Under the pieces are notes generated by a model. It searched no databases. It had not been told where the DNA came from and was given only the letters and a program-made list of their open reading frames with translations. The translations under genes and the position numbers were made by a program. Shown here piece after piece: positions 215 to 32,887 of a stretch of DNA of 64,000 nucleotides. The stretch lies in contig JAFWQC010000122.1 of the NCBI GenBank assembly GCA_017509245.1, positions 1 to 64,000 of the forward strand, read 5' to 3'. How positions within the stretch are numbered: position 1 is the first letter of the stretch; each line of letters opens with the position of its first letter. The DNA is from Clostridiales bacterium (lineage in GTDB: Bacteria; Bacillota; Clostridia; Saccharofermentanales; Saccharofermentanaceae).

Positions 215-2836
215 TTATAAGATTTCACAGTATTCAATTGATTTCTGATAGAACAGTACATATGCACTGATGTCCAGCTTCAATGCCTCTGTTCTGGTGG
301 CGGTTATTTCTCTGCTGATGACATTGTAACAGTAGTTCATAGGGCTGTAGGTAATTGAACCTGCATAGCCTGTGCCTTCGTAAACATCGATATTGAAGTC
401 ATTATTTATGAAGTGGATCGGGATATTCCTGATCGTTACTTTCGCGATCGTCTTGCCGGTGCCGTCATCAGAGAATGTGCAGGGGAGAACCTTGCCTTCT
501 TCAGTTCCGTCATTAATCTTGAAGTTCAAGTGATCACAGCCCTCAACGCCCGTGAAATAGAGATTCAGCACTGTCTCCGACTCGAGCTCGAGGTTGGCGC
601 TCCTAAGCGTAAGGCCGCAGGGACCTACCACCGTGCTGCCGGAGAATGCTCTGAGCTCGGATACATCGATAATGGATACCTGCTGCTCGGCCTCATCCAT
701 GACTGAATTTGCAAGATTATCAAGATTGTAATTGAAATAAAGCTGAGAGTATGCGCCATAGTTGAGCATGGCTTTTACGACATCCTGTTCATCAGTATAT
801 TCATCTGCATGGTCAAGAATATACTTTGCGTAGTCCTGAACTGAGTATGTATAGACAAGACCCTTTTTGTCTCCGCAGACCATCTGTGCCGTTATTTCGG
901 ATGTCATTTCCTTGGCAGCCACTCTGCATTCGAAAATAAAGAAATCGCCGTCTAAATATGCACAAGGTACATTCTCGTCAGCCTGGTCGTTGACATAGAC
1001 CTCCTGGGTTCTTGTCTTCGTGCCGTCAAGGCTTCTAATGGTAAATACCATCTTTGCATCTTCGCTGGCTGCGGTTACATCGTCCAATCTCATATAGAAG
1101 TCGACACCGATATCACCTTCAAGGCTTAATGAATAACCGTAGAGGTGCTCGCCGATACCCATGTCAATAACGTCAAGGTCACCAGCGTAGGTTACGTTAA
1201 CATCATCATGAAGTGATTCGTAGTCATCCAGGAATCTGAACGGAACATGGCAGACCGTCTTGTCACCATTAGTTATAAATTCCGCATTGTGAACCCTCCA
1301 GATAAGATTCTCCGGATTGGCATAACAATAAATATCTTTGCATTTGCAACCGAAGAAACTGTCAACTCCGATAGATTCGACACTGGCCGGTATTGTAATC
1401 GTTTTAAGCTTGGAACAATTCTCAAAAGCATTGCCCTTAATCTTTGTCAGACCTTCGGGGAGTATGACCGTTTCAAGCTTGTCACAGGCATAAAAAGTCT
1501 TGACATTGATCTCTGTAACACCGGACGGAATTGTGACTTCGGTAAGATCAGTAAAAGAGAATGCCCAACCTCCGATATAAGTGACACTGTCAGGAATATT
1601 AATTGAAGTTATCGGACATGATTGAAATGCGTTGTAATCAATGCTATCCAAACCATCAGGGAGTGTAATGGAACTCAACGAGTAACAATTCAGGAAAGCA
1701 TTTTCGCGGATTACCTTAACACCCTCAGGGATCGTTATAGGAGATGACAGGTCTGCACAATATGAGAACGCGTTCGGACCAATCTCAGTCACGGAACCGG
1801 GAATATTGATAGTCTGAAGATCCTCACAAGAAGAAAAAGCGTGTTTGCCGATGGAAACTAACGTATCAGGCAGAGAAATTGTTTTCACAGCCTGACAGAG
1901 CGAGAATGAATAGTCACCTATTTTCTTGACACTTGAAGCGATGCTGACACTCTCCATTGAACGGTTTGTATAGAAGGCATAATCACCAACGGAAGTGATA
2001 CCTTCACCGATAACGACGGATTTGATCTTTGACCTTAAGTGAGCCCACGGGATACTAAAATACATTTCATCTTCGTGCGAATAGTCAGGCATGTTGCCTG
2101 TACCGGTAATGGTTAATGTTCCATTGCTGTCAAGTGACCAGTCAATGCCGTTTCCGCAGCTGCCATACTCCAGGATACTGCCATCCGAATGGTCAGGAAC
2201 CGTAACTGTCACAGTAATGGAACCGGAACCGCCTGCGTATGAACAAGGGGTGCCATTGATATCGCTGTCAAAACTATATCCGGTCCATGTGCTTGTATAA
2301 TTCAGTGTTCCCGTATATGTTCCGGGTTCAGCAGCGTCAAAATCAGAAGGAATAATAAAAACGGAGAATGAGAACGGGTAGGTCTCTTCAAAACCATTGC
2401 TCTCATTTATTGTGCCGTCAAAAGGTCCTACGGTAAAACCGCTGCCGGGGAATGCTGCCAGACCATGATCACTGCAAACGCCAAAATCAAGGGAGTGTCC
2501 ATTTCCGTCGGAAAGTGTTCCGCCCTCCATGCTTATCGACACTTTGTCAACCAGGATCCATTCGCCTTCATTCTCGTAAGATCTCATCCTTCCGGGCTTA
2601 AGCTCAGTGAAGCTGGTCTTCAGATCAGTGTAAGCAGAATGAGTAAGCGTTATGTCGGAAAGCGCCAGGCTGTATGATGCGTCAGGAAGCTTCTCGAATT
2701 CTGCGATCATCTCCTCATTTGTGCGTGGTACGTAGCCCTCAGGAACAGCCAGAACAGTCACGCCGCTAAACGCTACTACGGCAGCAATGACAACTGAAAG
2801 TGTGAGCATTGTGCCCAAAAGACTTCTCTTTTTCAT
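215..2836 (-). CDS. Secreted leucine-rich repeat (LRR_5/BspA-type) surface protein
   Basis: This 873-residue exported protein has a signal peptide at residues 1-30 (MKKR start, hydrophobic core). An uncharacterised N-terminal domain covers about 31-215. The segment around 222-252 has the GSCGNGIDWSL and LTITGTGNMPDY signatures that usually open BspA-type LRR regions. About ten LRR_5 repeats follow at 270-505, with recurring IPxSVxxIGxxAF units. The C-terminal 350 residues are not LRR and I do not recognise them. No dockerin, LPXTG or choline-binding repeats are visible, so the attachment mode is unknown. The family is typical of surface proteins of host-associated Clostridia that bind host or microbial ligands. 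The start is supported by GGGGAG 8 bases upstream. Confidence 0.85.
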   Translation of the reverse strand: MKKRSLLGTMLTLSVVIAAVVAFSGVTVLAVPEGYVPRTNEEMIAEFEKLPDASYSLALSDITLTHSAYTDLKTSFTELKPGRMRSYENEGEWILVDKVSISMEGGTLSDGNGHSLDFGVCSDHGLAAFPGSGFTVGPFDGTINESNGFEETYPFSFSVFIIPSDFDAAEPGTYTGTLNYTSTWTGYSFDSDINGTPCSYAGGSGSITVTVTVPDHSDGSILEYGSCGNGIDWSLDSNGTLTITGTGNMPDYSHEDEMYFSIPWAHLRSKIKSVVIGEGITSVGDYAFYTNRSMESVSIASSVKKIGDYSFSLCQAVKTISLPDTLVSIGKHAFSSCEDLQTINIPGSVTEIGPNAFSYCADLSSPITIPEGVKVIRENAFLNCYSLSSITLPDGLDSIDYNAFQSCPITSINIPDSVTYIGGWAFSFTDLTEVTIPSGVTEINVKTFYACDKLETVILPEGLTKIKGNAFENCSKLKTITIPASVESIGVDSFFGCKCKDIYCYANPENLIWRVHNAEFITNGDKTVCHVPFRFLDDYESLHDDVNVTYAGDLDVIDMGIGEHLYGYSLSLEGDIGVDFYMRLDDVTAASEDAKMVFTIRSLDGTKTRTQEVYVNDQADENVPCAYLDGDFFIFECRVAAKEMTSEITAQMVCGDKKGLVYTYSVQDYAKYILDHADEYTDEQDVVKAMLNYGAYSQLYFNYNLDNLANSVMDEAEQQVSIIDVSELRAFSGSTVVGPCGLTLRSANLELESETVLNLYFTGVEGCDHLNFKINDGTEEGKVLPCTFSDDGTGKTIAKVTIRNIPIHFINNDFNIDVYEGTGYAGSITYSPMNYCYNVISREITATRTEALKLDISAYVLFYQKSIEYCEIL

Positions 2837-2900
2837 GTGATGTCTCCCCGTTAAATATATGATTAATCCCTAAAACCAAGGATTTCCCTCAGTAAATATT

Positions 2901-2906
2901 ATTATA
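2901..2906 (-). promoter_or_regulatory. Possible -10 element for the LRR protein gene
   Basis: TATAAT on the minus strand, about 65 bases before the LRR gene start. No good -35 is seen at 16-18 bases. It lies close to the divergent promoter at 2931-2958. Confidence 0.35.
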
Positions 2907-2930
2907 ATGCCCGCGAAAACAATATGTTTC

Positions 2931-2958
2931 TTAACTTTTTGTCACGATTTTGTATAAT
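2931..2958 (+). promoter_or_regulatory. Sigma-A-type promoter for the phosphoesterase gene
   Basis: TTAACT at 2931-2936 and a perfect TATAAT at 2953-2958, separated by 16 bases, 35 bases before the ATG at 2994. Confidence 0.55.
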
Positions 2959-2993
2959 TTGTCCTAACACCAAAGGAATCAGGGAGAATCAGG

Positions 2994-3536
2994 ATGCGCA
3001 TACTCATCATCAGCGACTCGCACGGCTACAATGATCCGCTCAGGACAGTAATACAAAGAGAAAAGCCGGACATGATGATTCATCTTGGAGACAGCCAGTA
3101 TTCACAGACAGAGATCGCGAAGTGGGCAGGTGCTCCCAAGACGCCCTGCGTTTTCGTCAGAGGCAACTGCGATACGGACTGTGACCCGGAACTTGTCAGG
3201 GACGCCGCTGTTTTCGAGCTCAAAGGACACAAATTCTACTGCGCTCACGGACACCGCGAGCATATAGACATGGGACTTTTAAGGATATCTCTCGCGGCAC
3301 AGGAACTCGGGTGCGACATATGCATGTTCGGCCATACACATGTGCCTTACGACAGCTTCGGTGAAGCGGTATCAAAGTTCAACCGCTTCTATGGCGGTGA
3401 CGGCAGCGCTTCGTGGCCGCGCCTTCTGAACCCCGGCTCGATCTCGATTCCCAGGGGCGGCTCCGGAAACAGTTATATGATCATGGAGATGGAGGATGAC
3501 GGCAGATATGAGGTTAAGTTCTGCCTTCTGAACTGA
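2994..3536 (+). CDS. YfcE/MJ0936-family metallophosphoesterase
   Basis: A soluble 180-residue protein with the full calcineurin-like metal-binding motif set in order: DSHG near residue 8, LGDS near 32, GNCD near 57, HGH near 82 and GHTH near 112, followed by NPGSIS, typical of the YfcE/MJ0936 branch. Members hydrolyse phosphodiester model substrates with Mn or similar divalent metals; the physiological substrate is usually unknown. Length is normal for the family. The start is set by AGGGAG about 10 bases before the ATG. The stop codon directly abuts the stop of the convergent glycerophosphodiesterase gene, with no bases or terminator between them. A phosphate-metabolism neighbourhood fits, but a link is inference. 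Confidence 0.9.
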   Translation: MRILIISDSHGYNDPLRTVIQREKPDMMIHLGDSQYSQTEIAKWAGAPKTPCVFVRGNCDTDCDPELVRDAAVFELKGHKFYCAHGHREHIDMGLLRISLAAQELGCDICMFGHTHVPYDSFGEAVSKFNRFYGGDGSASWPRLLNPGSISIPRGGSGNSYMIMEMEDDGRYEVKFCLLN

Positions 3537-7791: not shown

Positions 7792-9483
7792 TTATTTCCT
7801 TCCCAGGAGCTTCGGGAGGATGGGTGATAATGCGAATCCTATGCCGATGTTGATCGCTGCGCCTATCAGGATCGCCGGAATAAGATGGCCGGTAAAGAAA
7901 CCGACGAGCACTGCCGAAGCAGAAGGTGTTATTCCGAAATAGAAGAAGATCATTTGAACGACCATGGATAATGTGGGCGCCTGATCCTTGGGAAGCGAGA
8001 GTGAAATGATCGTGCCAACCACTGTTGCAAAGAAGCTTACTGACAGGATGAAAATAAGCCATGCGATAACGCTCAAAGGATTGGAGCCGAGTATAACTGC
8101 AGCTGCGATCATCGGAATAATAAGATCTATCGCAGTAACGGCAATGCTTCCGAGCAGTGAATAGAGGATCTTGGAATAATGCTTTTCGGGCACGAGGAAG
8201 AAGAAATCACGTGTTGTGTCTTCTCTTATCGGATCGCCGAGTGTTCTGTAGAAAGCAGCTACTCCGAGTACGACCGCAGGAATGAAGTACGGATCCATGT
8301 CAGTATATTGTCTTGCGAACCATGCGGATACACCGGCAATGATCGTGTAGACGATCGTTGTTGTCGACAAGATCTTGAGCTTCGCAAATCTGAATCTGTT
8401 ATAAACTGCTTTAAAGAAGAAAACGTTTGCACCTCTTCCGTAGTGATAGCCTTCTCTGTCGATCGCGCCCTTGCGCTCCTTCTCTCTGGTAACGACAGCA
8501 CCTTTGGCAGCATTTCTGACACTCTCGAGCTGTTCAGCCTTGTGCTCAGCAGCGAACATTGCATCCTCGTAAAAGTCAGCCTTCAACTTCCAGATCACGA
8601 GAACAAGCACACCGCAAGACACGATAAAGAGTCCGAGGTACATAAGGGACAATGCCGAATCACCTGTGACTGCATAATAGGAGATGCCTCTGAGCCAGCC
8701 CCAGAAAGGAACCCAGTGTGTTTTGGGATTTGCAAAATAGCCGTATGCGCCTTTCACAAAATCAAGCTTATTGATAAATGTGTAAGCTGCAAATCCGATA
8801 AAGACAGCTCCGTAAACAAAAGCAAGGAAATTCTTGATGTTGCCTGTGCCGGTCTTCATCTTGGATGTGATCGTATAGAAGACGACCTGTACCAGTGTGC
8901 TGAATACGAGGATCAGTGAATAAACAACGATCAGCGATACTGCAGCCCAGAATCCGAATCCGACATTGATTATCAGATTAGGCAGCTGGAAGAGCATGAA
9001 GACCGATACGAGAAGTGACGAACCCAAAGTGCAAAGCAGCCTGAACATCAGTACTGACTGCGGTCTCATCGGAGATGAGAACAGCATCGGCACGTCTGCA
9101 GGCAGGAAGATCTTGCTCGAATTCTGTGCATTTAAGATATTCGTTGCAAGAATGATGAGAAAAACAGCAGATATCACGATATCCGTTGTCTGTTCACGGC
9201 TCAGACCGTGCTTCTTCATGAATTGTGTAATACCGCCGTCTTCCTTATTTTCCTTGGCGGAACCGTCTGAAGAGTTCTCACCGCCAACGCCGGATTCCAC
9301 CTGTTCAATAGTGGTCTCAGATGTTGACTTGCCGCCTTTCTTGGAGGAAGCAAAAGCATTGGATATAAGGCCCACCGCAAATCCGAAGACTAACATGATG
9401 ATGATTGCGGCGACCCACGTCTTCATCAGCTTTTTAATCGTGTTAAAAAGCGAGTGGGAAATATAGTAAAGGAACAGTCTCAT
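7792..9483 (-). CDS. Putative ABC exporter permease
   Basis: A 563-residue integral membrane protein with an N-terminal membrane helix (about 17-40), an exposed Ser/Glu/Gly-rich segment (about 45-85), then some ten more hydrophobic helices. Layout and length fit the large putative ABC exporter permeases of Clostridia. Its ATG overlaps the stop of the ATPase gene (TAATG), so the two are translationally coupled and form one two-gene exporter. The substrate cannot be told from sequence. A minus-strand terminator follows at 7735-7767. Confidence 0.75.
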   Translation of the reverse strand: MRLFLYYISHSLFNTIKKLMKTWVAAIIIMLVFGFAVGLISNAFASSKKGGKSTSETTIEQVESGVGGENSSDGSAKENKEDGGITQFMKKHGLSREQTTDIVISAVFLIILATNILNAQNSSKIFLPADVPMLFSSPMRPQSVLMFRLLCTLGSSLLVSVFMLFQLPNLIINVGFGFWAAVSLIVVYSLILVFSTLVQVVFYTITSKMKTGTGNIKNFLAFVYGAVFIGFAAYTFINKLDFVKGAYGYFANPKTHWVPFWGWLRGISYYAVTGDSALSLMYLGLFIVSCGVLVLVIWKLKADFYEDAMFAAEHKAEQLESVRNAAKGAVVTREKERKGAIDREGYHYGRGANVFFFKAVYNRFRFAKLKILSTTTIVYTIIAGVSAWFARQYTDMDPYFIPAVVLGVAAFYRTLGDPIREDTTRDFFFLVPEKHYSKILYSLLGSIAVTAIDLIIPMIAAAVILGSNPLSVIAWLIFILSVSFFATVVGTIISLSLPKDQAPTLSMVVQMIFFYFGITPSASAVLVGFFTGHLIPAILIGAAINIGIGFALSPILPKLLGRK

Positions 9484-10217
9484 TATGCGTTCTCCCCTTC
9501 TCCGCTTACGGATGATTTGTCGATACCTTCCGTAACTTCGAAGAACAGATCCTCGAGTGATTTTCCGCTTCCTTCAATCTCACTTCTTGTGACATTGGCG
9601 CGGATCTGTCCCTTCTGCATGATTATCGTTCTGTCCCAGAGCATGTCGACACTGTCGATGATGTGCGTACTGATCAGCATCGTCTTGCCGGCCTGGCGCA
9701 TCTCTTCGATGTAATTCTTTAGTTCCTTGATGGCGTGAGGATCAAGACCTAACAGCGGCTCATCAAGGAGGATGATGTCGGGATCAGGCAAAAGGCCAAG
9801 GCAGAGATTCAGTTTCTGCTGCATACCCTTGGAGAGCTCATCTCCGAACTTCTTGCGCTTGTCATCGAGTTCGAAGCGCTCGAGAAGCATATTTACCCTG
9901 TCTTTGTAATTGGTAAGCTTATATGCTCTTGCGATGAATTCCATGTGCTCTGTTACCGTAAGTGTCGGGTAGAGCGACGGCATCTCGGGAATATAGCCCA
10001 GGATCTTACGTGCTTCAACTGACTTGTTGATCTTGCCGTTAACGGTAATAGATCCGTCATACTTAAGGAATCCGATTATCGATTTGATGATCGTACTCTT
10101 GCCGGCACCGTTAGGTCCCAGAAGAACCGTTAATGTGCCCGGCTCGAGAGTGAATGACACATCGTCACATGCAACATTTTTACCGTAACGCTTTGTTACG
10201 TTCTTGACTTCTAACAT
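9483..10217 (-). CDS. ABC transporter ATP-binding protein
   Basis: The 244-residue ATPase has all nucleotide-binding motifs: Walker A GPNGAGKST (about 34-42), a Q-loop region, an LSKGMQQKL signature (a variant of LSGGQ, common in this exporter group), Walker B IILLDEPLLGLD and the H-loop STHI. It powers the permease encoded immediately downstream. GGGGG lies 9 bases before the ATG. The 222 bases upstream up to the divergent regulator gene hold no obvious operator. The closest group is the CcmA/NatA-like export ATPases. Confidence 0.92.
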   Translation of the reverse strand: MLEVKNVTKRYGKNVACDDVSFTLEPGTLTVLLGPNGAGKSTIIKSIIGFLKYDGSITVNGKINKSVEARKILGYIPEMPSLYPTLTVTEHMEFIARAYKLTNYKDRVNMLLERFELDDKRKKFGDELSKGMQQKLNLCLGLLPDPDIILLDEPLLGLDPHAIKELKNYIEEMRQAGKTMLISTHIIDSVDMLWDRTIIMQKGQIRANVTRSEIEGSGKSLEDLFFEVTEGIDKSSVSGEGENA

Positions 10218-10439
10218 AAACTATTACCCCCTAAAAATTCCTGAACTTGGATAAGTTTGCCATTTAAGTTTTTGCTTTGCAATAATACCAAATCAACGTT
10301 AAGGAAGTGTTAAGGAAACTGTGGCAAGTGAGTAAAAATCTATTTTCGCGCAATAAAATAAACAGCAAAGAAAAGTGATATTTTTCTATGCTATTATTTA
10401 CAAGTGCTTTAACTTGACAGTCGGGAGAGAGAGACGCAT

Positions 10440-12800
10440 ATGGCCAAGTGGATCATTGTCGTAGATGATGACACTGCCAATCTTAAAATGGCAGGTCACA
10501 TCCTGAGTAAGAACAATATGCGCGTCACGGCTCTTAAATCAGGCAGTTCATTTCTTGAGTATGTGGATTCCAATGGTGTTCCGGATCTGGTACTTCTTGA
10601 TATCAAGATGCCTGTTATGGACGGATTCGAGACGCTCGGAAAACTCAGGCAGATGGAACAGATGAAGGGTCTGATGAAGACACCTGTTATCTTCCTTACA
10701 GCAGATGAGGATGCGGATACCGAGACCAAGGGTTTTGAGGTCGGTGTATCAGACTTTATCAGAAAACCTTTTAATCCGGATGTTCTGCTCCGTAGGATCA
10801 ATAACATCATGTCGAATTCGCAGGAGATCCACGACCTCAAGAGCGAAGCGACCATAGATAAATTAACAGGACTCTTTAACAAGGGTGCCACCTCGGTCGA
10901 GTTATCCAGGATGTGTTCCGAGAAATCAGGGTGCCTCATGATGATCGACCTGGATTCATTTAAGCTCGTAAACGATCTATACGGACATGAGATGGGCGAT
11001 AAGATCCTCACCTCATTCTCTGACATCATACGTGAATCACTGCCTGAGGGAAGCAAGTGCGGCAGGATCGGCGGAGACGAATTCGTTGCTTTTGCATCAG
11101 GTGTCAATTCCGATCTGCTGATTGCCGAGATATCAAGGAAGATCAATGAAGATCTCGTCAGATCCGCGAAGGACCTCATGGGCGAGGATAACGGAATCCC
11201 GCTCGGAGTTTCTATCGGCGGTATTTTTGTGCCCAGACACGGAAACGACTACAATTCACTCTTAAAACTTGCGGATAAAGCCCTTTATTCAGTCAAGAAA
11301 AACGGCAAGCACGGTTACAATCTCTACAGCGACGAGGCCGAAGACGATGAGTCTTCATCCGTTTCCGACATAAAGGCCATATCTGAGATCCTGGGCGAGC
11401 GTTCTGTCCACAATGTTGCACTTCAGCTTGATAAGGATTCGTTCTCGTCCGTATACCGTTATATCGTCAGATACATAATGCGCCATCATATCAACGCATG
11501 TAAGCTCCTGTTCACCCTCTCGCCCGCTGACGGCAGGGCCGATACGGAATACTATGACAGTGTTGACGAATTCGGCAATCACATAAGAGAGTCCCTGCGC
11601 AAGTCGGACATCTTCATGAGGAACAACAAGAACCAGTACTTCGTATTCCTCACGGACATAAGGGCTGATTCGGTAGACAAGGTCATCGCCCACATCATGA
11701 AAGACTGGAATAAGAAGGGCATAACCAATCTCGCGATCAGTCATGAATCTGAATTCATAGGAGAGCCGCAGAATCTTGCTTCGTATGCCATGACGAAGAA
11801 GGTCGCTGTGGTCGATGACGATATCATCAATCTTCACGTTGCAAGCAAGATATTGAGTTCAGGCGGCATCAACGCCGTTACGCTCAAGTCGGGGGAAGAA
11901 CTTTTCGAGTACCTGGAGAAGGAAACAGATCTTCCGAACCTGATACTTCTAGACGTAAAGATGCCCGGAATGAGCGGCTTTGACACGATCAGGAAGCTTC
12001 ATTCCCTTGAGACATGCGCTGCCAAGATCCCTGTAATATTCCTTACCGCGGATGAGAGCGAGGGAGCTGAGCGCGAAGGCCTCTCTCTTGGCGCGATGGA
12101 CTTTATCAGGAAGCCTTTCGTACCTGAAGTCCTTCTCATGCGCATTAATAACCTTATCGAACTCGTTACGCTGCAAAAGCAGCTCTACTTTGAGATCGAG
12201 CAGAAGACGAGAGAGAATAAGTCTCTTTTCCTGCAGGTCGTAAGCAGTCTCGCGGCTGCGGTCGATACAAAAGACGTTTATGCCAAGGGTCATTCGAACC
12301 GTGTTGCCATATATTCGAAAATGATAGCCAGGAGACTCGGCTTCTCCGATGCCAGACAGGACGAGATCTACATGCTGGGGCTCCTTCACGATGTAGGCAA
12401 GATCGGCATCCACTCCTCCGTGCTCAACAAGCCCGGAGCCCTCACAGACGAGGAATTTGAACAGATAAAGAAGCATTCGGTAACGGGTGCTTCCATCCTT
12501 GAGAATATTGAGGCGAACCCCAAGTTCGCATTATGTGCAAAACATCATCATGAGAGATACGACGGTTCAGGTTATCCTTCGGGACTTAAAGGAAATGACA
12601 TTCCTGAGGAAGCGAGGATCATAGCTGTCGCTGATGCTTATGATGCGATGTCAAGTGACAGAAATTACAGGCCCCACCTGTCTCAGGAAAAAATCAAAGA
12701 GGAGCTCAGGACCGGGAAGGGAACTCAATTCGACCCGAACCTCGCTGAGGTAATGCTCGCGATCGTGGAAGAAGATAAAGACTACAGACTCAAGGGTTAA
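10440..12800 (+). CDS. Dual c-di-GMP response regulator REC-GGDEF-REC-HD-GYP
   Basis: A soluble 786-residue protein with two receiver domains and two opposing c-di-GMP enzymes. REC1 covers 1-125 (phospho-acceptor Asp54). A diguanylate cyclase at 135-295 has an intact GGDEF at 211-215 but no RxxD inhibitory site. Residues 325-445 look like a second, degenerate GGDEF fold in which the motif reads KNQYF. REC2 covers 452-575 (Asp505) and closely resembles REC1. A C-terminal HD-GYP phosphodiesterase covers 590-775 (His650-Asp651; GYP at 711-713, preceded by HHHERYDGSG). It may therefore make or degrade c-di-GMP according to which receiver is phosphorylated (inference). Two hybrid kinases follow directly and are its likely partners. 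Confidence 0.92.
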   Translation: MAKWIIVVDDDTANLKMAGHILSKNNMRVTALKSGSSFLEYVDSNGVPDLVLLDIKMPVMDGFETLGKLRQMEQMKGLMKTPVIFLTADEDADTETKGFEVGVSDFIRKPFNPDVLLRRINNIMSNSQEIHDLKSEATIDKLTGLFNKGATSVELSRMCSEKSGCLMMIDLDSFKLVNDLYGHEMGDKILTSFSDIIRESLPEGSKCGRIGGDEFVAFASGVNSDLLIAEISRKINEDLVRSAKDLMGEDNGIPLGVSIGGIFVPRHGNDYNSLLKLADKALYSVKKNGKHGYNLYSDEAEDDESSSVSDIKAISEILGERSVHNVALQLDKDSFSSVYRYIVRYIMRHHINACKLLFTLSPADGRADTEYYDSVDEFGNHIRESLRKSDIFMRNNKNQYFVFLTDIRADSVDKVIAHIMKDWNKKGITNLAISHESEFIGEPQNLASYAMTKKVAVVDDDIINLHVASKILSSGGINAVTLKSGEELFEYLEKETDLPNLILLDVKMPGMSGFDTIRKLHSLETCAAKIPVIFLTADESEGAEREGLSLGAMDFIRKPFVPEVLLMRINNLIELVTLQKQLYFEIEQKTRENKSLFLQVVSSLAAAVDTKDVYAKGHSNRVAIYSKMIARRLGFSDARQDEIYMLGLLHDVGKIGIHSSVLNKPGALTDEEFEQIKKHSVTGASILENIEANPKFALCAKHHHERYDGSGYPSGLKGNDIPEEARIIAVADAYDAMSSDRNYRPHLSQEKIKEELRTGKGTQFDPNLAEVMLAIVEEDKDYRLKG

Positions 12801-12805
12801 GCACT

Positions 12806-15358
12806 ATGACTACAACTAAAGACATCAAAGACCTGTTTCAGACCTCGAACCTGACGCTGCTTATAAGTTATACGGTCTTTGCCGTGATCCTGATGGCCGA
12901 ATCACTCCTCATGGGGTGGGAGACATGGGCTGTATGCCTTATTCTCGTAAGCGTCATTATCTGCTGGGTCATGCACATCAGGCACAACACCTCCGAAGAG
13001 ATCCGCATTTGGACCACAGCCGGTCTCATGATGGTATGCTTCTTCTTTTACGGAACGCATGAGACAAGCACATTTGACCTCGCCCTGGTAATCTCAGCGA
13101 TCATTGTCCTCAATACGATGACCGGAAAGAAATCGCTTATCACGATGAGTCAGGTAACCTACTACGTCACGATGGCTTATGCGATATACGTCTTGGTGGT
13201 TAATAAAACGGAATTCGATCCTCTCATGATAAGCCGTCTCGCACTTCACCTTGCAATGGTATTTGCCGTAGGCAAGTTCGCGAAAATCATAATCGACAAG
13301 TGGGTCGATGTATTAAGCAGTTCCAAGGACGAAGTCATCCAGCTCAAGGACGCGACCGAGCGCTTGAATGACTTCCTTGCAAACGTATCACACGAATTAA
13401 GAACTCCTGTTAACGCCATCATCGGACTTACCAGCCTTTGCATCGACAAGTCCAGAAACCGCGAGGTCGAGGGTGACCTTATCGCGGTAAGGGATGCGGG
13501 ACGCAAGGTTGCCGAACAGATCGGCGACATCCTCGATTATTCCGAGATCGACCGTCACAAGGCGGTCTGCAACAACGAAGACTACATGCTTTCTTCCGTT
13601 CTTCACGATCTCGTTACTGACATTAAGCAGTATAAATCCAGAAATGTTGAGCTCGTTATCGATGTCGATCCCTCGATCCCCGCGGTAATGAACTCCGACG
13701 TAGGCAAGATCAAGAAAGTCCTAAAGGCCCTTATAACAAACGGTCTCAAGTACACGCAAAAAGGCGGTGTCTACGTAAGGATCTCCTCCATTGCCCAGGA
13801 TTACGGCGTCAACCTCTGCATTGAGGTCACGGACACAGGTAAGGGCATGACGGAATATGAGCTCGAGAAAGTATATGACAGCTTCTATCAGGCAGATTCC
13901 GGACGTGCGCGCCAGGGCGGCGGCTTAGGTCTGGGTCTTGCCATCGCTTCAGGCTTCGTATCCCTCCTCAAGGGCTTCATGACGATCGAGAGTACGCCTG
14001 ATGTAGGCACCACGGTCAATGTAAGCATCCCCCAGAGGGTCGTCGATCCATTGAGCTGCATGTCGGTAGCCAACCCCGACAAGCTCTGCCTCGGTGCTTT
14101 CCTCCATTTTGAGAAATACGAGAGCCCTGCCGTTAGAGACTACTATAACAACATGGTACTCAACATCGTTAAGGGCTTAGGAGTCCAGATGCACCGCGTT
14201 AACAACGCCGAGAACTTAAAGCTCCTGCATAACTCCATTCACATGACCCACCTCTTTATCGCAGAGGAGGAATATAACGATAACGTTAAGCTCATCGAAG
14301 AGCTTGCCAGGGAAATGGTAGTTGCAGTCGTCGCCAATGAAGGAATCGTTCTTCCTAAGAATACGAATGTTAAGGTGCTTGAAAAGCCTTTCTACTGCTT
14401 CCCTGTCGTTTCAATTCTGAATTCCACTATAGGCGATAAGGAAGAGCACAAGAAGAAACTGCGCTGCGAAGGCGTCAGGGCACTCGTTGTTGATGATGAG
14501 TCGATGAACCTCGTCGTCGCAAGGAGCATTTTCGAGCGCTACGGAATGAAGGTAGTCACCGCAACATCAGGACAGGAATCCATCGATATCTGCCGTGAAA
14601 GGGTTTTCGATATCGTATTCATGGACCACATGATGAGCGGAATGGACGGCGTTGAAGCAATGAAGAGGATCAGGACAGACGTATCCGGACTTAACGGTTC
14701 GATCCCGATCGTCGCGCTCACCGCGAATGCAATGAGCTCTGCCAAGCAGATGTTCCTCAAGGAAGGCTTTGACGGCTTCGTCAGCAAGCCTATCGAGATA
14801 GAGGAACTCGAGCGTGTCATGAAGCAGGTGCTCCCCAAATCCTCCATATCATTTATCGACGCCGAAGCGGAAAAGGAGATCATCGCAATTAACGAAGCCG
14901 TTCCTGAACCGGAACCCGAACCCGGGTCCGAAAAGGACGTTATCGCAGTACTTAAAAAGAGCGGCATCGACACTGACGCAGGAATCAAATACTGCGTAGG
15001 TGATACGGATTTCTACAAATCGCTCCTGATGCAGTTCGCTTCAGAAGCAACCGATAAGATAGCTTCAATGAAGCAGTATTTCCTGATCCACGACTGGCAC
15101 AATTACGAGATACTCGTGCACGCCCTGAAGAGCACGTCCAAGATGATCGGCGTGGCTGATCTGTCCGAAAAGGCAAAGGCTCTCGAGATGGCGGCAAAGG
15201 CAAACGATGAGGAATTCATCCTTGATAATCACAATTTGATGATACAGGATTACGGGCGCATCTCCGGCAACATCAGGGAGCATCTCCTTGGAGACGGGAA
15301 TGACGATGAGGAAGTGTTCGAATTCGAACCTGAAAATGACGGAGGTGATGAGGTATGA
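12806..15358 (+). CDS. Hybrid histidine kinase with receiver and HPt domains
   Basis: An 850-residue membrane kinase. Five to six hydrophobic segments lie in residues 15-165, with no large external sensor. HisKA carries His196 (NVSHELRTP) and HATPase_c covers about 290-410 (DTGKGM, GGGLGLGLA). Residues 425-540 look like a degenerate receiver without the phospho-acceptor Asp. A genuine receiver follows at 555-675 (Asp607, FMDHMMSGMDG), then a Pro/Glu linker and an HPt domain at about 710-830 (His772, HALKSTSKM). The whole phosphorelay is thus in one chain. The gene starts 5 bases after the c-di-GMP regulator and overlaps the next kinase by 4 bases (ATGA), so the three are one operon. Confidence 0.92.
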   Translation: MTTTKDIKDLFQTSNLTLLISYTVFAVILMAESLLMGWETWAVCLILVSVIICWVMHIRHNTSEEIRIWTTAGLMMVCFFFYGTHETSTFDLALVISAIIVLNTMTGKKSLITMSQVTYYVTMAYAIYVLVVNKTEFDPLMISRLALHLAMVFAVGKFAKIIIDKWVDVLSSSKDEVIQLKDATERLNDFLANVSHELRTPVNAIIGLTSLCIDKSRNREVEGDLIAVRDAGRKVAEQIGDILDYSEIDRHKAVCNNEDYMLSSVLHDLVTDIKQYKSRNVELVIDVDPSIPAVMNSDVGKIKKVLKALITNGLKYTQKGGVYVRISSIAQDYGVNLCIEVTDTGKGMTEYELEKVYDSFYQADSGRARQGGGLGLGLAIASGFVSLLKGFMTIESTPDVGTTVNVSIPQRVVDPLSCMSVANPDKLCLGAFLHFEKYESPAVRDYYNNMVLNIVKGLGVQMHRVNNAENLKLLHNSIHMTHLFIAEEEYNDNVKLIEELAREMVVAVVANEGIVLPKNTNVKVLEKPFYCFPVVSILNSTIGDKEEHKKKLRCEGVRALVVDDESMNLVVARSIFERYGMKVVTATSGQESIDICRERVFDIVFMDHMMSGMDGVEAMKRIRTDVSGLNGSIPIVALTANAMSSAKQMFLKEGFDGFVSKPIEIEELERVMKQVLPKSSISFIDAEAEKEIIAINEAVPEPEPEPGSEKDVIAVLKKSGIDTDAGIKYCVGDTDFYKSLLMQFASEATDKIASMKQYFLIHDWHNYEILVHALKSTSKMIGVADLSEKAKALEMAAKANDEEFILDNHNLMIQDYGRISGNIREHLLGDGNDDEEVFEFEPENDGGDEV

Positions 15359-18078
15359 AAGACATGTTAAGATATCTGTTCAAACCGTCAAGCAACGATC
15401 CGGAAGCAATAAAGTCGGCATACTATGAATCGGTCGGCCCGACTTATGTAACGATGCTCATCTCGCTTACCGCGGCGGTCATCTTCCTGGTCCTCACATT
15501 CGTATATCCTGCATTTTTCGGCGGAACCACCGTACTCTACCACCAGCTTTGCTACATTTGGCTCATGGCAGTCGTATTGATATGGTGCCTCGGTGCGCAT
15601 CACGCGATGAAGGATTATGCGACCAGATATAAGAACGTCTATGTCCTTAACCACTTCATGGGCATCTCTTTGTATATCTGGGTAATATTACTTGTTATCG
15701 TTAACTCGATCGCAAGAGGCACGGTCGACACCACGCTGTTCATGACCGTTGCCCTGATCGTCCCTTTGTGCGTATATTTCAACCCGATAGCATACGTGCT
15801 CATCGCTCTGTCATCCAGCGCGGTCATGCTCGCTTTCCTGTATTACATGTCACATCACGGCTCGGTCGAGACGAACGAAGTCGCAAACTTCATGATCTTC
15901 TCGGTATTCCAGGTCGTAATGGGCATCATCATGTCCTACACGAGATTCAGGCTTAACGAGCAACTCGTAAAGGCGGAGAACCAGAGAAGAGAGATCGAGA
16001 TGCTCAACAAGGCCCAGAACAGTTTCTTCTCCAACATGAGCCACGAGATCAGAACACCTATCAACACGATAATCGGCCTCAACGAGATGATCTTGAGAGA
16101 GGATGTAAGTGAGGAAGTAATCGAGGATGCGGTAAACATTAAGGCTGCCGGCAAACTCCTTCTTAACCTCATCAACGATATCCTCGACATGAGCAAATTC
16201 CAGTCAGGCCGTATGCAGCTCCTTATCGAGCCTTATCATTCAGGCGACATGCTCTCTGATATCGTCGGCATGCTCTGGATCAGGGCAAAGGATAAGAAGC
16301 TCGACTTCAACGTTGACGTATCTCCCGATATCCCCGCTGAACTCGTCGGTGACGAAGTCCGCATCAAGCAGATCCTCATCAACGTCATAAACAACGCAAT
16401 CAAATACACAAATGAAGGTTCCGTCTCACTGACCGTCCAGTGCGAGATGAAGGAAGACAAGATGTGCAACATGATCTACAGCGTCTCCGACACCGGTATC
16501 GGTATCAAGTCAGAGGATATCCCCTACCTGTTCTCCGCATTCAAGCGTGTCGACGAGACAGTCAACAAGCATATCGAAGGTACGGGCTTAGGCCTTTCGA
16601 TCGTTAAGCAGCTTGTAGACCTCATGGGTGGTAAGATCGCCGTCAACAGCGTCTACAAGAAGGGCACGACCTTCATCATTGAGATCCCTCAGAGAGTCGA
16701 GCGCGAAGGTTCTGTCGGAGAATACGATTTCTCCAAGGCAGGCACTGCCGCACAAAGGAAGGAATATCTTCCCAAGTTCGAAGCTCCTGAAGCAAGGATC
16801 CTTGTAGTCGACGACAACGAAGCAAACCTCATGGTCGTAAGCAAGCTCCTGCGCGACACCAAGGTCCGTATCGACACAGCCACAAGAGGCGATGAGGCTT
16901 TGAGAAAGACCCTCAACATCAAGTACGATGTCATCTTCATGGATCACCTCATGCCTGAGATGGACGGTGTCGAGTGCAGAAGGAAGATCAAGGACCAGAC
17001 CGGCGGAAGATGCCGTGAAACTCCTATCGTCATCCTTACCGCAAATGCCGACGAAGACAACAGAGCCCTTTACGCGCGCGAAAATTTTGACGGCTACCTT
17101 GTAAAACCCGTCTCAGGCGAAGCCCTTGAGAATGAACTCTATGTCCATCTCCCCAAGGAGGTTGTCCGTATCACAGGCAACAGAAGCGAGATCGCTGAAG
17201 AATCGATCTCCTGGATGAACGGTTCAAAGAAGCGTAAGAGCATCGTCATCACAACCGAGAGCGTTGCCGATCTGTCACCCGAGATAATCACGAAATACGG
17301 CATCGGTGTCCTGCCCCATAAGGTCCGCACCGAGGAAGGTATCTTCAAAGACGGCAAGGAGATCGAGACCCTTGGTGTCCTCAAGTATATGGAAGATCCG
17401 GATAACGTCGTTCTCCCTGTAGGTCCTACGGTAAGAGAAGCTGAGGAGTTCTTTGCAAAGCAGCTCGCTTATGCAAACAATGTCATCCACATCTCCATCT
17501 CGAGCAAGATCGAGCACAGCGGTTACAAGCCCGCTCTCGATGCTGCAAGATCCTTCGACAACGTATTCGTCATCGACTCATCCCACCTGTCAAGCGGCCA
17601 GGGCATCATGGCCATCGTTGCATGCAGAATGGCAGAGGCCGGCCTTGCGCCCGAGCAGATCGTTAAGGAACTCGAGTTCGTCAAGAAGAAGATCCACACG
17701 AGCTTCATCGTAGATAATCTCGACTTCCTCGCACGCGCCAACCAGGTCGGAAACAGCATAGCCAACATCGTTAAGTCCCTCATGGGCCGTCCCGTCTTAA
17801 AGCTCCGCAAGGGTAAGATGGGTGTCGGCATGACCTACTTCGGCACAAGGGAGAGTGCATGGAAGGCTTATATCGCCTCCACCCTGTCTCATTCCAACAT
17901 CGATACGAGAATACTCTGCGTAACCTATGTAGGAATCAACAAGCACGATCTTGACTGGATCCGCGAGCAGATCGAAAAGCGCATGAAGTTCGATGAGATC
18001 TACTTCAAGCAGGCATCCCCTGCCATCGCCGTTAACTGCGGTGCCGGCACCTTCGGATTGCTGTTTATGGAGAAATAA
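15355..18078 (+). CDS. Hybrid histidine kinase-receiver fused to a DegV domain
   Basis: A 907-residue protein. Residues 30-200 contain six membrane segments. HisKA has His230 (NMSHEIRTP), HATPase_c covers about 300-450 (DTGIGI, GTGLGLS), and a receiver covers 480-600 (Asp530). From about 628 to the end is a complete DegV domain of about 280 residues: ITTESVADLS at the start, ISISSKIEHSGY near 713 and VIDSSHLSSGQG near 739, matching the conserved positions of fatty-acid-binding DegV proteins. DegV proteins normally stand alone and present fatty acids to FakA kinase. A fusion to a kinase-receiver chain suggests sensing of fatty-acid status or control of lipid binding by phosphorylation (inference). 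The reading frame is continuous, with no frameshift signs at the joint. Confidence 0.9.
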   Translation: MKDMLRYLFKPSSNDPEAIKSAYYESVGPTYVTMLISLTAAVIFLVLTFVYPAFFGGTTVLYHQLCYIWLMAVVLIWCLGAHHAMKDYATRYKNVYVLNHFMGISLYIWVILLVIVNSIARGTVDTTLFMTVALIVPLCVYFNPIAYVLIALSSSAVMLAFLYYMSHHGSVETNEVANFMIFSVFQVVMGIIMSYTRFRLNEQLVKAENQRREIEMLNKAQNSFFSNMSHEIRTPINTIIGLNEMILREDVSEEVIEDAVNIKAAGKLLLNLINDILDMSKFQSGRMQLLIEPYHSGDMLSDIVGMLWIRAKDKKLDFNVDVSPDIPAELVGDEVRIKQILINVINNAIKYTNEGSVSLTVQCEMKEDKMCNMIYSVSDTGIGIKSEDIPYLFSAFKRVDETVNKHIEGTGLGLSIVKQLVDLMGGKIAVNSVYKKGTTFIIEIPQRVEREGSVGEYDFSKAGTAAQRKEYLPKFEAPEARILVVDDNEANLMVVSKLLRDTKVRIDTATRGDEALRKTLNIKYDVIFMDHLMPEMDGVECRRKIKDQTGGRCRETPIVILTANADEDNRALYARENFDGYLVKPVSGEALENELYVHLPKEVVRITGNRSEIAEESISWMNGSKKRKSIVITTESVADLSPEIITKYGIGVLPHKVRTEEGIFKDGKEIETLGVLKYMEDPDNVVLPVGPTVREAEEFFAKQLAYANNVIHISISSKIEHSGYKPALDAARSFDNVFVIDSSHLSSGQGIMAIVACRMAEAGLAPEQIVKELEFVKKKIHTSFIVDNLDFLARANQVGNSIANIVKSLMGRPVLKLRKGKMGVGMTYFGTRESAWKAYIASTLSHSNIDTRILCVTYVGINKHDLDWIREQIEKRMKFDEIYFKQASPAIAVNCGAGTFGLLFMEK

Positions 18079-18197: not shown

Positions 18198-19412
18198 TCA
18201 ATAGTTCTCTGCGTTGATCTCGAAATAGCTCTGGGGATGAGCGCAAACAGGGCACATCTCAGGTGCCTTCTCACCAACTACGATGTGACCGCAGTTTCTG
18301 CACTCCCAAACCTTGACTTCGCTCTTTGCGAAAACTTCCTGAGCCTCAACGTTCTTAAGGAGAGCTCTGTATCTCTCTTCATGATGCTTCTCGATAGCGC
18401 CGACCATTCTGAACTTAGCTGCGAGTGCCGGGAAGCCCTCTTCTTCAGCAGTCTTTGCGAATCCTTCGTACATGTCTGTCCACTCGTAGTTCTCGCCGTC
18501 AGCAGCTGCTGCGAGGTTCTCAGCTGTTGTGCCGATGCCCTCAAGCTCCTTGAACCACATCTTAGCGTGTTCTTTCTCGTTGTCAGCTGTCTTGAGGAAG
18601 AGAGCTGCAATCTGCTCGTAGCCTTCCTTCTTAGCCTTTGATGCGAAGTAGGTGTACTTATTTCTGGCCTGCGATTCACCTGCGAATGCTGCCTGAAGAT
18701 TCTTCTCTGTCTGTGTACCTGCGTACTTGCTCATTTTTGATTCCTCCTGTGTCTTTGTTATGGTATTTTCTTTTGTTGACTCTTTTGCAGGCGCCGTGCC
18801 CTCGAGCGGAATGAAGTAGCTTGCGTCATGCTTGCACCACGGGCAGATAAAATCTCCGGGGAGCGTATCACCTTCGTAGATATACCCGCAAACCGTGCAG
18901 ATAAAGCCCTTCTTCGCAGGTGCGTCTGCTGCCGCGGCAGGCTTCTGCTTAATGTATTTCTGGTAGAAAGCATAAGTGACCGAAGAACCATCCGACAATA
19001 CTTCGCCGTCAGTGACGTCAGCAAGGAACAGCGTGTGCGTTCCGAGATCAGTCTCGCTTACCACCTTTGCGGAGAGGAATGCGTTGGTCTCGTCAGTAAT
19101 GTACGCAATGCCGTTGGAAGCTCTCTTAAATTCAATGGCTTCCATCTTGTCGATGTCCCTGCCGGACTGGAAACCAAAGTGCTTGAAGGTCTCAAACTTC
19201 GAACCTTCGGTAAGGATCGAGACATTGAACTCGCCTGTCTTATGGATCATGTCATGCGTGAAGTTAAGCTTGTTAACAGCAACGCAGATCCTGTTAGGCT
19301 CAGTCGTGACCTGGGATACCGTGTTAACTATGCAGCCGTTGTCCTTCGCACCATCCTTAGCCGTCAGGATAAAGAGGCCGTATGTCAGGTTGTACATGGC
19401 TTTGCTGTCCAT
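18198..19412 (-). CDS. Flavin reductase-rubredoxin-rubrerythrin fusion
   Basis: A 404-residue oxygen-defence protein. Residues 1-155 form an FMN-binding flavin reductase-like domain. A rubredoxin follows at about 168-205 (CTVCGYIY and CPWC). Residues 227-404 are a full rubrerythrin with a diiron four-helix domain ([21 protein letters not shown]) and a C-terminal rubredoxin-like site (CRNCGH, CPVC). The parts resemble high-molecular-weight rubredoxin plus rubrerythrin, which pass electrons from NAD(P)H through flavin and iron to peroxide or oxygen. Carrying them in one chain is uncommon. A strong ribosome site precedes an in-frame internal ATG at 18734, so free rubrerythrin may also be made. 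The main start has AAGGGGGG at 6-7 bases. Confidence 0.9.
18732..18748 (-). promoter_or_regulatory. Internal ribosome binding site inside the fusion gene
   Basis: On the minus strand AGGAGG (18748-18743) lies 8 bases before an in-frame ATG (18734-18732) exactly at the start of the rubrerythrin domain (residue 227). Initiation here would yield a 178-residue free rubrerythrin (18734-18198). Confidence 0.7.
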
Positions 19413-31324: not shown

Positions 31325-31357
31325 TTTTTTACATTTGAGCAAATGGAGGGATCTCAT

Positions 31358-32887
31358 ATGGATAAGAAGAAGTCGCTTATCATCGGTGTCTCTGTAGGAG
31401 GAGCACTTCTGCTCGCTCTTATCGTTGTTTCCGTAGTGCTTGCCAACAGACCGTCCGCCCTGATCGCAAGGGCAACTGCCAATACACTGGCAGATGCCGA
31501 GAGATTTGAGGCTGTGCGCGTCGCTGAAGATGTTGCCAACGGCGGATCGGTAGCCATCTCTGCAAATCTCGATAAGTATGCAAAAGACGACCTGGTAGTC
31601 CAGGCAAAATACTATTCTGATGCGCAGAAGTTAAAAGGTGCATTTGAGATGAGTCTGTTAGAGGATGACGATGTCGTTCTCAGGCCGAGACTTCTCTACA
31701 ATCAGGACAGCATCGCATTCTCCTGCCCCGAGATCCTTGACGAGGTCTACGGCATTAATATCAAGCACCTGGAAAAGAATCTCGAAGGTTCGATTTTCGA
31801 TCCCGACGAAGAGACAGACTATTCCCTGACCGAAGAGCAGTTCGATTACTTCCTGAACCTTAAGAACACGTTGAAGAAGGATTCCAGCCTTCAGTACGAT
31901 ATCGAAAAGGTTTCTTCAAGATACACCAGGCTCGCCACGGAAAAGCTCATCAAGTATTCCGATGTCAAAAGATCGGGCAAGACTATAACAGTTGGCGGCG
32001 AGAAGATCCCCTGCACGCTCATCACGATCTCCGTTGACGAGGACAGCATCGCGCTCATCGCAGAGGATCTCATCGACTATGCAAACGATGACGAGGAATT
32101 AGAGGATCTGCTCTACCGCTTCGCATCCAACGCTTCTGTTTACGATGATCCCGATGAGATGGTCGATGAATTCTATGATAATCTCGATGAGATCGAAGAT
32201 AAACTCGATGATCTTGAAGATATTGAGATCACTCTCGAATTCTATATCACCAAGTCAGGCAGAAGACTTGCCCAGCTTGACGGCGAGATCGAGATCGACG
32301 ATGAGGGCTGTGATTTCTCCCTCGTGATCGGCAGAAATATCACCAAGTCCAAGGAGATCAGCTTCACATACGAGGAGAAGGGCTCCAAGGAAGGTTATGC
32401 CCTGACCTATTCCGTAAAGGAAAACAGCTCCCGTCTCTATGAGGCCGAGATCAAGATAGAGGAGAGCAACGTCCGCCGCAACTACTACGATTACGACTGG
32501 GATTACGGCTGGGACGACTGGTCAGATCCGGGTTACGACGAGAAGCTTGAGACTGAGACAACGACCATCAAGATCGAATGGGACAAAAAGGACGGGGATC
32601 TCACCATAAAGTACAAGGGTGATTGGTATGACTACGTCATTAAGGGCAACCTCCTCAAAAAGGGTGATAAGTATACCTTCGTTCTTACAAATATCAAGTC
32701 GGACGGCACACCTGTCTCGAGCGTCAAGTCGCTTGGGCTTACGGTTACTATCGACAGACACGATCCCGCACCTAACGTTCCGGGCCGTTATACCGATATC
32801 ACAAAGATGAGCGAGCGTGATTTCAAGCACTTCACGAAAGACCTCGAAGAGGGTTTTGAAGACATCTGGAAAGAGTATTTCCGTTAA
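31358..32887 (+). CDS. Membrane-anchored extracytoplasmic protein, unknown function
   Basis: A 509-residue protein starting MDKKKSL with one N-terminal membrane helix (about 7-29) and a large, acidic external part, very rich in Asp and Glu. There is no cysteine lipobox. A Tyr/Asp/Trp cluster (NYYDYDWDYGWDDW) is at about 376-389. The start was moved from an in-frame ATG at 31343 to 31358 because GGAGGG (31345-31350) sits 7 bases before it and overlaps the earlier ATG. The organisation resembles lipoprotein-like envelope proteins of Clostridia, but I recognise no domain. A terminator follows at 32941. The gene is single, between divergent neighbours. Confidence 0.75.
   Translation: MDKKKSLIIGVSVGGALLLALIVVSVVLANRPSALIARATANTLADAERFEAVRVAEDVANGGSVAISANLDKYAKDDLVVQAKYYSDAQKLKGAFEMSLLEDDDVVLRPRLLYNQDSIAFSCPEILDEVYGINIKHLEKNLEGSIFDPDEETDYSLTEEQFDYFLNLKNTLKKDSSLQYDIEKVSSRYTRLATEKLIKYSDVKRSGKTITVGGEKIPCTLITISVDEDSIALIAEDLIDYANDDEELEDLLYRFASNASVYDDPDEMVDEFYDNLDEIEDKLDDLEDIEITLEFYITKSGRRLAQLDGEIEIDDEGCDFSLVIGRNITKSKEISFTYEEKGSKEGYALTYSVKENSSRLYEAEIKIEESNVRRNYYDYDWDYGWDDWSDPGYDEKLETETTTIKIEWDKKDGDLTIKYKGDWYDYVIKGNLLKKGDKYTFVLTNIKSDGTPVSSVKSLGLTVTIDRHDPAPNVPGRYTDITKMSERDFKHFTKDLEEGFEDIWKEYFR

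Follow-up and report, generated by a model that had tools for sequence, protein, structure and literature searches.

Does a hybrid histidine kinase that continues past its receiver into a complete DegV domain exist as one chain, and what would a member of a family described mainly as FakA fatty-acid carriers do in a phosphorelay? The question is raised by gene C, the third gene of an operon in the window, which is the whole stretch of 64,000 nucleotides of a Clostridiales draft genome that was analysed (Table 1). An earlier note on this DNA had described a hybrid kinase, a receiver and a full DegV domain in a single chain, placed in an operon with c-di-GMP enzymes, and both descriptions hold: gene C is one frame of 907 codons with the Pfam domains in that order, and Pfam finds the c-di-GMP domains in gene A.

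Table 1. Operon genes, domains of gene C and replaced FakB sites of its DegV domain (positions of the window, or residues of the gene C protein)
Feature	Position	Strand	Basis
Gene A, REC-GGDEF-REC-HD-GYP, 786 aa	10440..12800	+	Pfam; GGDEF, HD, HHExxDG and both receiver Asp present
Gene B, membrane HK-REC-Hpt hybrid kinase, 850 aa	12806..15358	+	Pfam; H-box, receiver Asp and Hpt His present
Gene C, HK-REC-DegV fusion, third operon gene	15355..18078	+	Pfam, orthologue alignment
Gene C N-terminal membrane region	15355..15975	+	About six predicted long helices, ~200 residues; no Pfam match
Gene C HisKA, residues 221-285	16015..16209	+	Pfam 1.4e-15; phospho-acceptor His230 in SHEIRTP
Gene C HATPase_c, residues 332-446	16348..16692	+	Pfam 2.4e-27; N, G1 and G2 boxes intact
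Gene C Response_reg, residues 482-594	16798..17136	+	Pfam 3.2e-22; Asp530, Asp486/487, Lys584
Gene C REC-DegV linker, residues 601-629	17155..17241	+	Conserved SWM motif
Gene C DegV domain, residues 630-906	17242..18072	+	Pfam, model positions 2-279 of 280
DegV replacements (FakB site)	Glu635 (D8), Pro688 (T62), Gln797 (R173)	+	Alignment
DegV replacements (FakB site)	Gly830 (R205), Asn894 (H270); Glu720 (S95, alignment uncertain)	+	Alignment

The HisKA histidine, the HATPase boxes and the receiver aspartate that mark a hybrid histidine kinase are all found in gene C, and His230, Asp530, Asp486/487 and Lys584 are invariant in 44 orthologues. The DegV domain is recognised by Pfam (E-value 1.3e-41) and by the NCBIfam DegV model TIGR00762 (150.7 bits, cut-off 99.7). 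Its dN/dS of 0.02-0.09, similar to that of the receiver, indicates purifying selection on the DegV part; the N-terminal membrane region (0.09-0.13) is the fastest-evolving large part of the gene. A degenerating passenger domain, considered as a candidate, is rejected on these receiver-like values. The full-length AF2 model (pTM 0.43) predicts the kinase core poorly and does not give the relative placement of the domains, and linker residues 608-625 have low model confidence.

The fusion is not a one-off. When 115 genomes of the source family were searched with the receiver-DegV stretch, 66 aligned over its full length (56-98% identity), and 63 of these have it in a single frame of at least 876 codons. 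Within the order the fusion is confined to two genera; in the rest of the class it occurs in a small share of a 391-genome sample, at 35-47% identity, and none was found beyond the class in a 398-genome phylum sample, which leaves its existence elsewhere possible. Carriers in the collection scan are Saccharofermentans-like, Lachnospiraceae and Ruminococcus records, mostly from rumen and gut, and they include the strain (non-MAG) records AB4001 (L060), YAD3003 (L085) and G41 (L118). The HK-REC-DegV architecture is thus widespread in rumen and gut Clostridia. A single-frame fusion in dozens of independent genomes, strains included, means that gene C is neither a chance nor an assembly join. An assembly artefact or a chance join of two genes has nothing to recommend it except the draft state of the source genome (123 contigs), and its probability is practically nil, given the identical single frame in more than 60 family genomes and in strain genomes and the residues conserved on either side of the junction and within the linker.

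Intact copies are the rule. The exception is a MAG (L086) in which the fusion gene is split into two overlapping frames (8166-9077 and 8999-10888), by a frameshift or a sequencing error. An apparent loss of the fusion is seen in genome G023 (contig C3, 126770-127192), where a DegV remnant with an internal stop lies in a species that keeps FakA.

The operon is conserved along with the fusion. Gene A is predicted to be a bifunctional c-di-GMP synthase/hydrolase with two receivers, and all phospho-transfer and c-di-GMP motifs are present in the operon of the window, where the ATG of gene C overlaps the stop of gene B by 4 nt. Across 80 related loci, gene B lies upstream of the fusion in 74 of the 75 with room for it and gene A in 68 of 69, and exactly the same 4 nt overlap of B and C recurs in 54. 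Some lineages have a shorter or divided gene A, with HD-GYP as a protein of its own (L127). Distant fusions retain the partner kinase while the Hpt domain changes place: at L168 it forms the C-terminus of the fusion itself (HK-REC-DegV-Hpt), none being found in the partner kinase of that locus, and at L170 it is carried by a separate REC-Hpt protein. Beside some distant fusions, plain REC proteins stand in the place of the c-di-GMP enzyme. An Hpt that moves between proteins while the kinase pair is kept would be expected if all parts form one relay.

Two further features of the operon were seen. Residues ~310-440 of gene A, between GGDEF and the second receiver, are conserved with no Pfam match, and short gene A forms that end near residue 440 retain them. 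In most of the loci L093-L107, those of the sister genus among them, an extra hybrid kinase of ~890 aa (~300-3100) stands before gene A, making a four-gene operon.

The DegV domain keeps the family fold. Modelled alone it reaches an AF2 pLDDT of 91.5; its best Foldseek match to solved fatty-acid-binding DegVs covers the whole length (5.6e-25), and it superposes on 2dt8 with a Z of 33.6 at 2.3 A over 275 residues. The best structural matches are fatty-acid-bound DegVs and FakBs, at Z 31-34 over ~270 residues with ~20-23% identity.

The residues that make a FakB are a different matter. In FakB1 the carboxylate is held by Thr62, Ser95, Ser171 and His270, catalysis requires Arg173, and binding to FakA requires Arg205 (PMC8892158). 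These sites (FakB1 numbering) were compared between 90 distinct fusions and 42 free DegVs. Arg173 is replaced in 89 of 90 fusions, by Gln in 84, and is Arg in 40 of 42 free DegVs; Thr62 is Pro in 66 fusions and kept in 17, against Thr in 39 of 42; Arg205 is Gly in all 90, against Arg kept in 31 of 42; His270 is Asn in 88, against His kept in 30 of 42; and D8 is Glu in 83 fusions. Ser171 varies everywhere, and Ser95 was left uncounted because it is kept if the alignment shifts by one residue (SSKIEHSGY vs SSGISGSY). The FakB carboxylate network is thus not matched in the fusions, Thr62 and His270 being mostly replaced. A few distant fusions deviate, such as L167, which keeps Arg173 and His270.

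A stricter control narrows the set of telling sites. The 32 FakA-type free DegVs compared here come from the same family, and the majority are encoded on the contig that also carries FakA. Among them, D8 (30 of the 30 aligned), Thr62 (32/32) and Arg173 (31/32) are kept, and His270 and Arg205 are kept in only 2 and 3 of 32, respectively (H270 changed in 30, Arg205 to Lys or Thr in 29). The fusions thus differ from free DegVs in general at sites 8, 62, 173 and 205, and from the FakA-type DegVs of their own family at 8, 62 and 173. Because both are also altered there, His270 and Arg205 are weak marks by themselves and were dropped as strong ones; Thr62, Arg173 and D8 are the sites that separate fusions from FakA-type DegVs in this lineage. 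The case against a FakB is therefore carried by these three residues together with independence from FakA.

The pocket itself has been altered at one end. Tail-tunnel sites 121, 162, 191 and 267 remain hydrophobic in the fusions; site 158 is polar, and in the loop with which FakB1 inserts into the membrane, sites 180 (W180 to Asn) and 184 (L184 to Ser) have likewise become polar. Thr32, Gln173, Gly205 and Asn270 (FakB1 numbers) are near-invariant in fusions and not in free DegVs. The simplest reading of these sites would be a retained pocket with a new headgroup end. The lipid binding that the earlier note had ascribed to the domain may or may not exist, with fold and hydrophobic tunnel sites kept and the polar carboxylate site changed.

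INDEPENDENCE from fatty-acid kinase is seen in the distribution of the two genes: of 69 fusion-bearing species, 33 also have FakA and 36 lack it. Half of these 36 species (18) have genomes at least 90% complete, and in nearly all of them the fusion is the only DegV. The two are mildly associated (Fisher P 0.005) over species that are non-independent samples, so the sole point to be taken from this count is that the fusion does not need FakA. Free DegVs behave otherwise: across 113 family genomes, all 42 with FakA also encode a free DegV, which otherwise occurs in two genomes only (Fisher P 5e-29), so that 42 of 44 free-DegV genomes contain FakA. In the source genome the FakA gene lies beside two free DegVs and a PlsX-family gene of fatty-acid/phospholipid synthesis. 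With key FakB residues replaced and 36 of 69 species lacking FakA, the fusion DegV domain is probably no carrier of FakA substrate. A canonical FakB was tried against both the residues and the co-occurrence with FakA and agrees with neither, and the earlier proposal of a FakB-kind fatty-acid carrier finds no support where Arg173 has become Gln and Arg205 Gly in nearly all fusions and half of the species have no FakA.

In three species that lack the fusion, an equivalent operon contains a related DegV that is not fused at all. In a maximum-likelihood tree the fusion DegVs form one clade (100/100) that includes the free DegVs of loci L175 and L177, whose exact placement within it is weakly supported (86/74); the row L091, although labelled free, is a fragment at a contig edge and so not a true free DegV. 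At L175 an HK-REC-Hpt kinase is followed by the free DegV, which starts one base past the region of the last coding base of the kinase. The L177 operon runs HK-REC-Hpt, REC-GGDEF, DegV, REC-HD-GYP, and L182 has the full L177 arrangement with a very similar DegV. A DegV is linked to such a phosphorelay both in cis and in trans, and the free operon DegVs are an independent link. Those of L177 and L182 have Gln173 and Gly205 as in the fusions, which ties the change more closely to the signalling context than to the act of fusion; that of L175 keeps Arg173. The free DegVs of L175 and L177 may derive from fission after fusion or from unfused ancestry, and one or several fusion origins both fit.

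In the free group that branches beside the fusion clade, one DegV (L176, genome G098, contig C15) also has Gly at the Arg205 site. G098 is the one sister-genus genome in which FakA was found.

With the architecture, its conservation, the operon, the residue changes and the independence from FakA observed directly, the reading preferred here, at a probability of roughly 0.6, is that the three genes form one c-di-GMP phosphorelay in which the DegV domain serves kinase C as a regulatory module that binds a ligand in the cytoplasm, and is not a FakA donor. Kinases B and C would pass phosphate through their own receivers and a shared Hpt to the receivers of gene A, and enzyme A would make and break c-di-GMP. 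The DegV domain would act as input, reporting to kinase C on a small ligand of the cytoplasm, lipid-like or otherwise, so that its ligand state would tune c-di-GMP turnover. Since fold and hydrophobic pocket are kept and the polar headgroup site is changed, such a report, with no fatty-acid handover to FakA, is the most likely role. The domain would come from a DegV branch separate from those that serve FakA, and would have entered the system either as an operon partner or by direct fusion. A wider proposal, that this clade of DegVs represents a new class of signal inputs, which recognise a non-FakB lipid-like metabolite or use a new headgroup chemistry and gate a c-di-GMP phosphorelay in cis or in trans, stands a little short of even odds.

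The most durable alternative makes the DegV domain an output: phosphorylation of the kinase C receiver would switch lipid or partner binding by DegV, which would be the chain's own effector for handling lipid. A domain behind a receiver is often an output rather than an input, which counts against the input model; DegV follows REC as the effector domain does in response regulators that have one, and the free operon DegVs of L175, L177 and L182 could equally be effectors. This alternative is nevertheless unlikely. Half of the species lack FakA, which leaves a carried fatty acid with no known acceptor there, the catalytic Arg173 is replaced, the residues of the FakB membrane-inserting loop are polar, and the operon already holds an output of the pathway in c-di-GMP.

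Less probable again is a structural or docking domain free of ligand, which would, for example, pair kinases C and B or position enzyme A. The altered headgroup site, the near-constant company of both kinases (74 of 75 loci with room) and the free DegV acting in trans in three operons suit such a role. The near-invariant Thr32, Gln173, Gly205 and Asn270 around the former headgroup site speak for a pocket that has been kept, as do the hydrophobic tunnel sites.

An ordinary FakB, tethered to a membrane kinase to serve the FakA of the cell or to sense fatty acids by the FakB mechanism, fits the data worst of these three and is very improbable. The complete DegV fold, whose closest solved structures bind fatty acids, and the FakA gene beside two free DegVs in the source genome agree with it; the replacement of Arg173 and Arg205 in 89 and 90 of 90 fusions, respectively, the retention of Thr62 in only 17 and the 36 fusion species without FakA do not.

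The phosphorelay reading preferred here has, by analogy, its nearest working parallel in RpfC/RpfG of Xanthomonas, where a membrane HK-REC-Hpt kinase and a REC-HD-GYP c-di-GMP hydrolase are encoded in one operon and respond to a fatty-acid signal (PMC3749722). Genes B and A match that pair of an HK-REC-Hpt kinase beside a REC-HD-GYP enzyme. The present operon differs in its second hybrid kinase with a C-terminal DegV, a domain absent from Rpf as described (PMC3749722), and in an enzyme A that also bears GGDEF and a second receiver. FakB/DegV proteins (S. aureus FakB1, T. maritima TM841, B. subtilis DegV) share the whole fold with the fusion domain (~22% identity, Z 31-34), which differs from them in being joined to a kinase, in having D8, T62, R173 and R205 replaced and in occurring without FakA. 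DhaQ and DhaK have a related fold (2iu4, Z 16.4). As co-activators of dihydroxyacetone operons they illustrate how a paralogue of a binding protein can be put to new use as a regulator that depends on its ligand. They act on a transcription factor and not on a kinase, with another ligand and from another family. In S. aureus, a Gram-positive bacterium in which FakAB is linked to SaeRS, fatty acids inhibit the SaeS kinase by a route not yet known (PMC5539427). The level of fatty acids there acts on a histidine kinase, but S. aureus FakB is not part of the kinase.

No system that combines DegV with a histidine kinase, two-component proteins or GGDEF was found in open-licence PMC text, in line with the earlier note, which had known of none of this type. 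The operon joins a known type of phosphorelay to a DegV domain for which no earlier description in signalling was found in that text, and gut and rumen Clostridia seem to have turned a lipid carrier to use in signalling. If this is correct, the DegV family is also a source of signalling domains, and c-di-GMP control in these bacteria receives direct input from lipid or metabolite status. Many DegV paralogues have no known role, and the Gln173/Gly205 subgroup that travels with phosphorelays offers a testable function; strain genomes such as AB4001, YAD3003 and G41 carry the operon, which makes it accessible to experiment.

Beyond the operon, an Rfam scan of the window gave zero matches, and no PilZ protein was found in the source draft genome (79% complete). 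A 514-aa frame at 31343-32887 (+) has no Pfam match. A separate GGDEF-EAL protein is encoded in the window at 47407-49242 (+). At 18198-19412 (-), a single chain combines a flavin reductase, a rubredoxin-like region and a rubrerythrin with a C-terminal rubredoxin domain, and this chain often lies directly downstream of the operon in related genomes.
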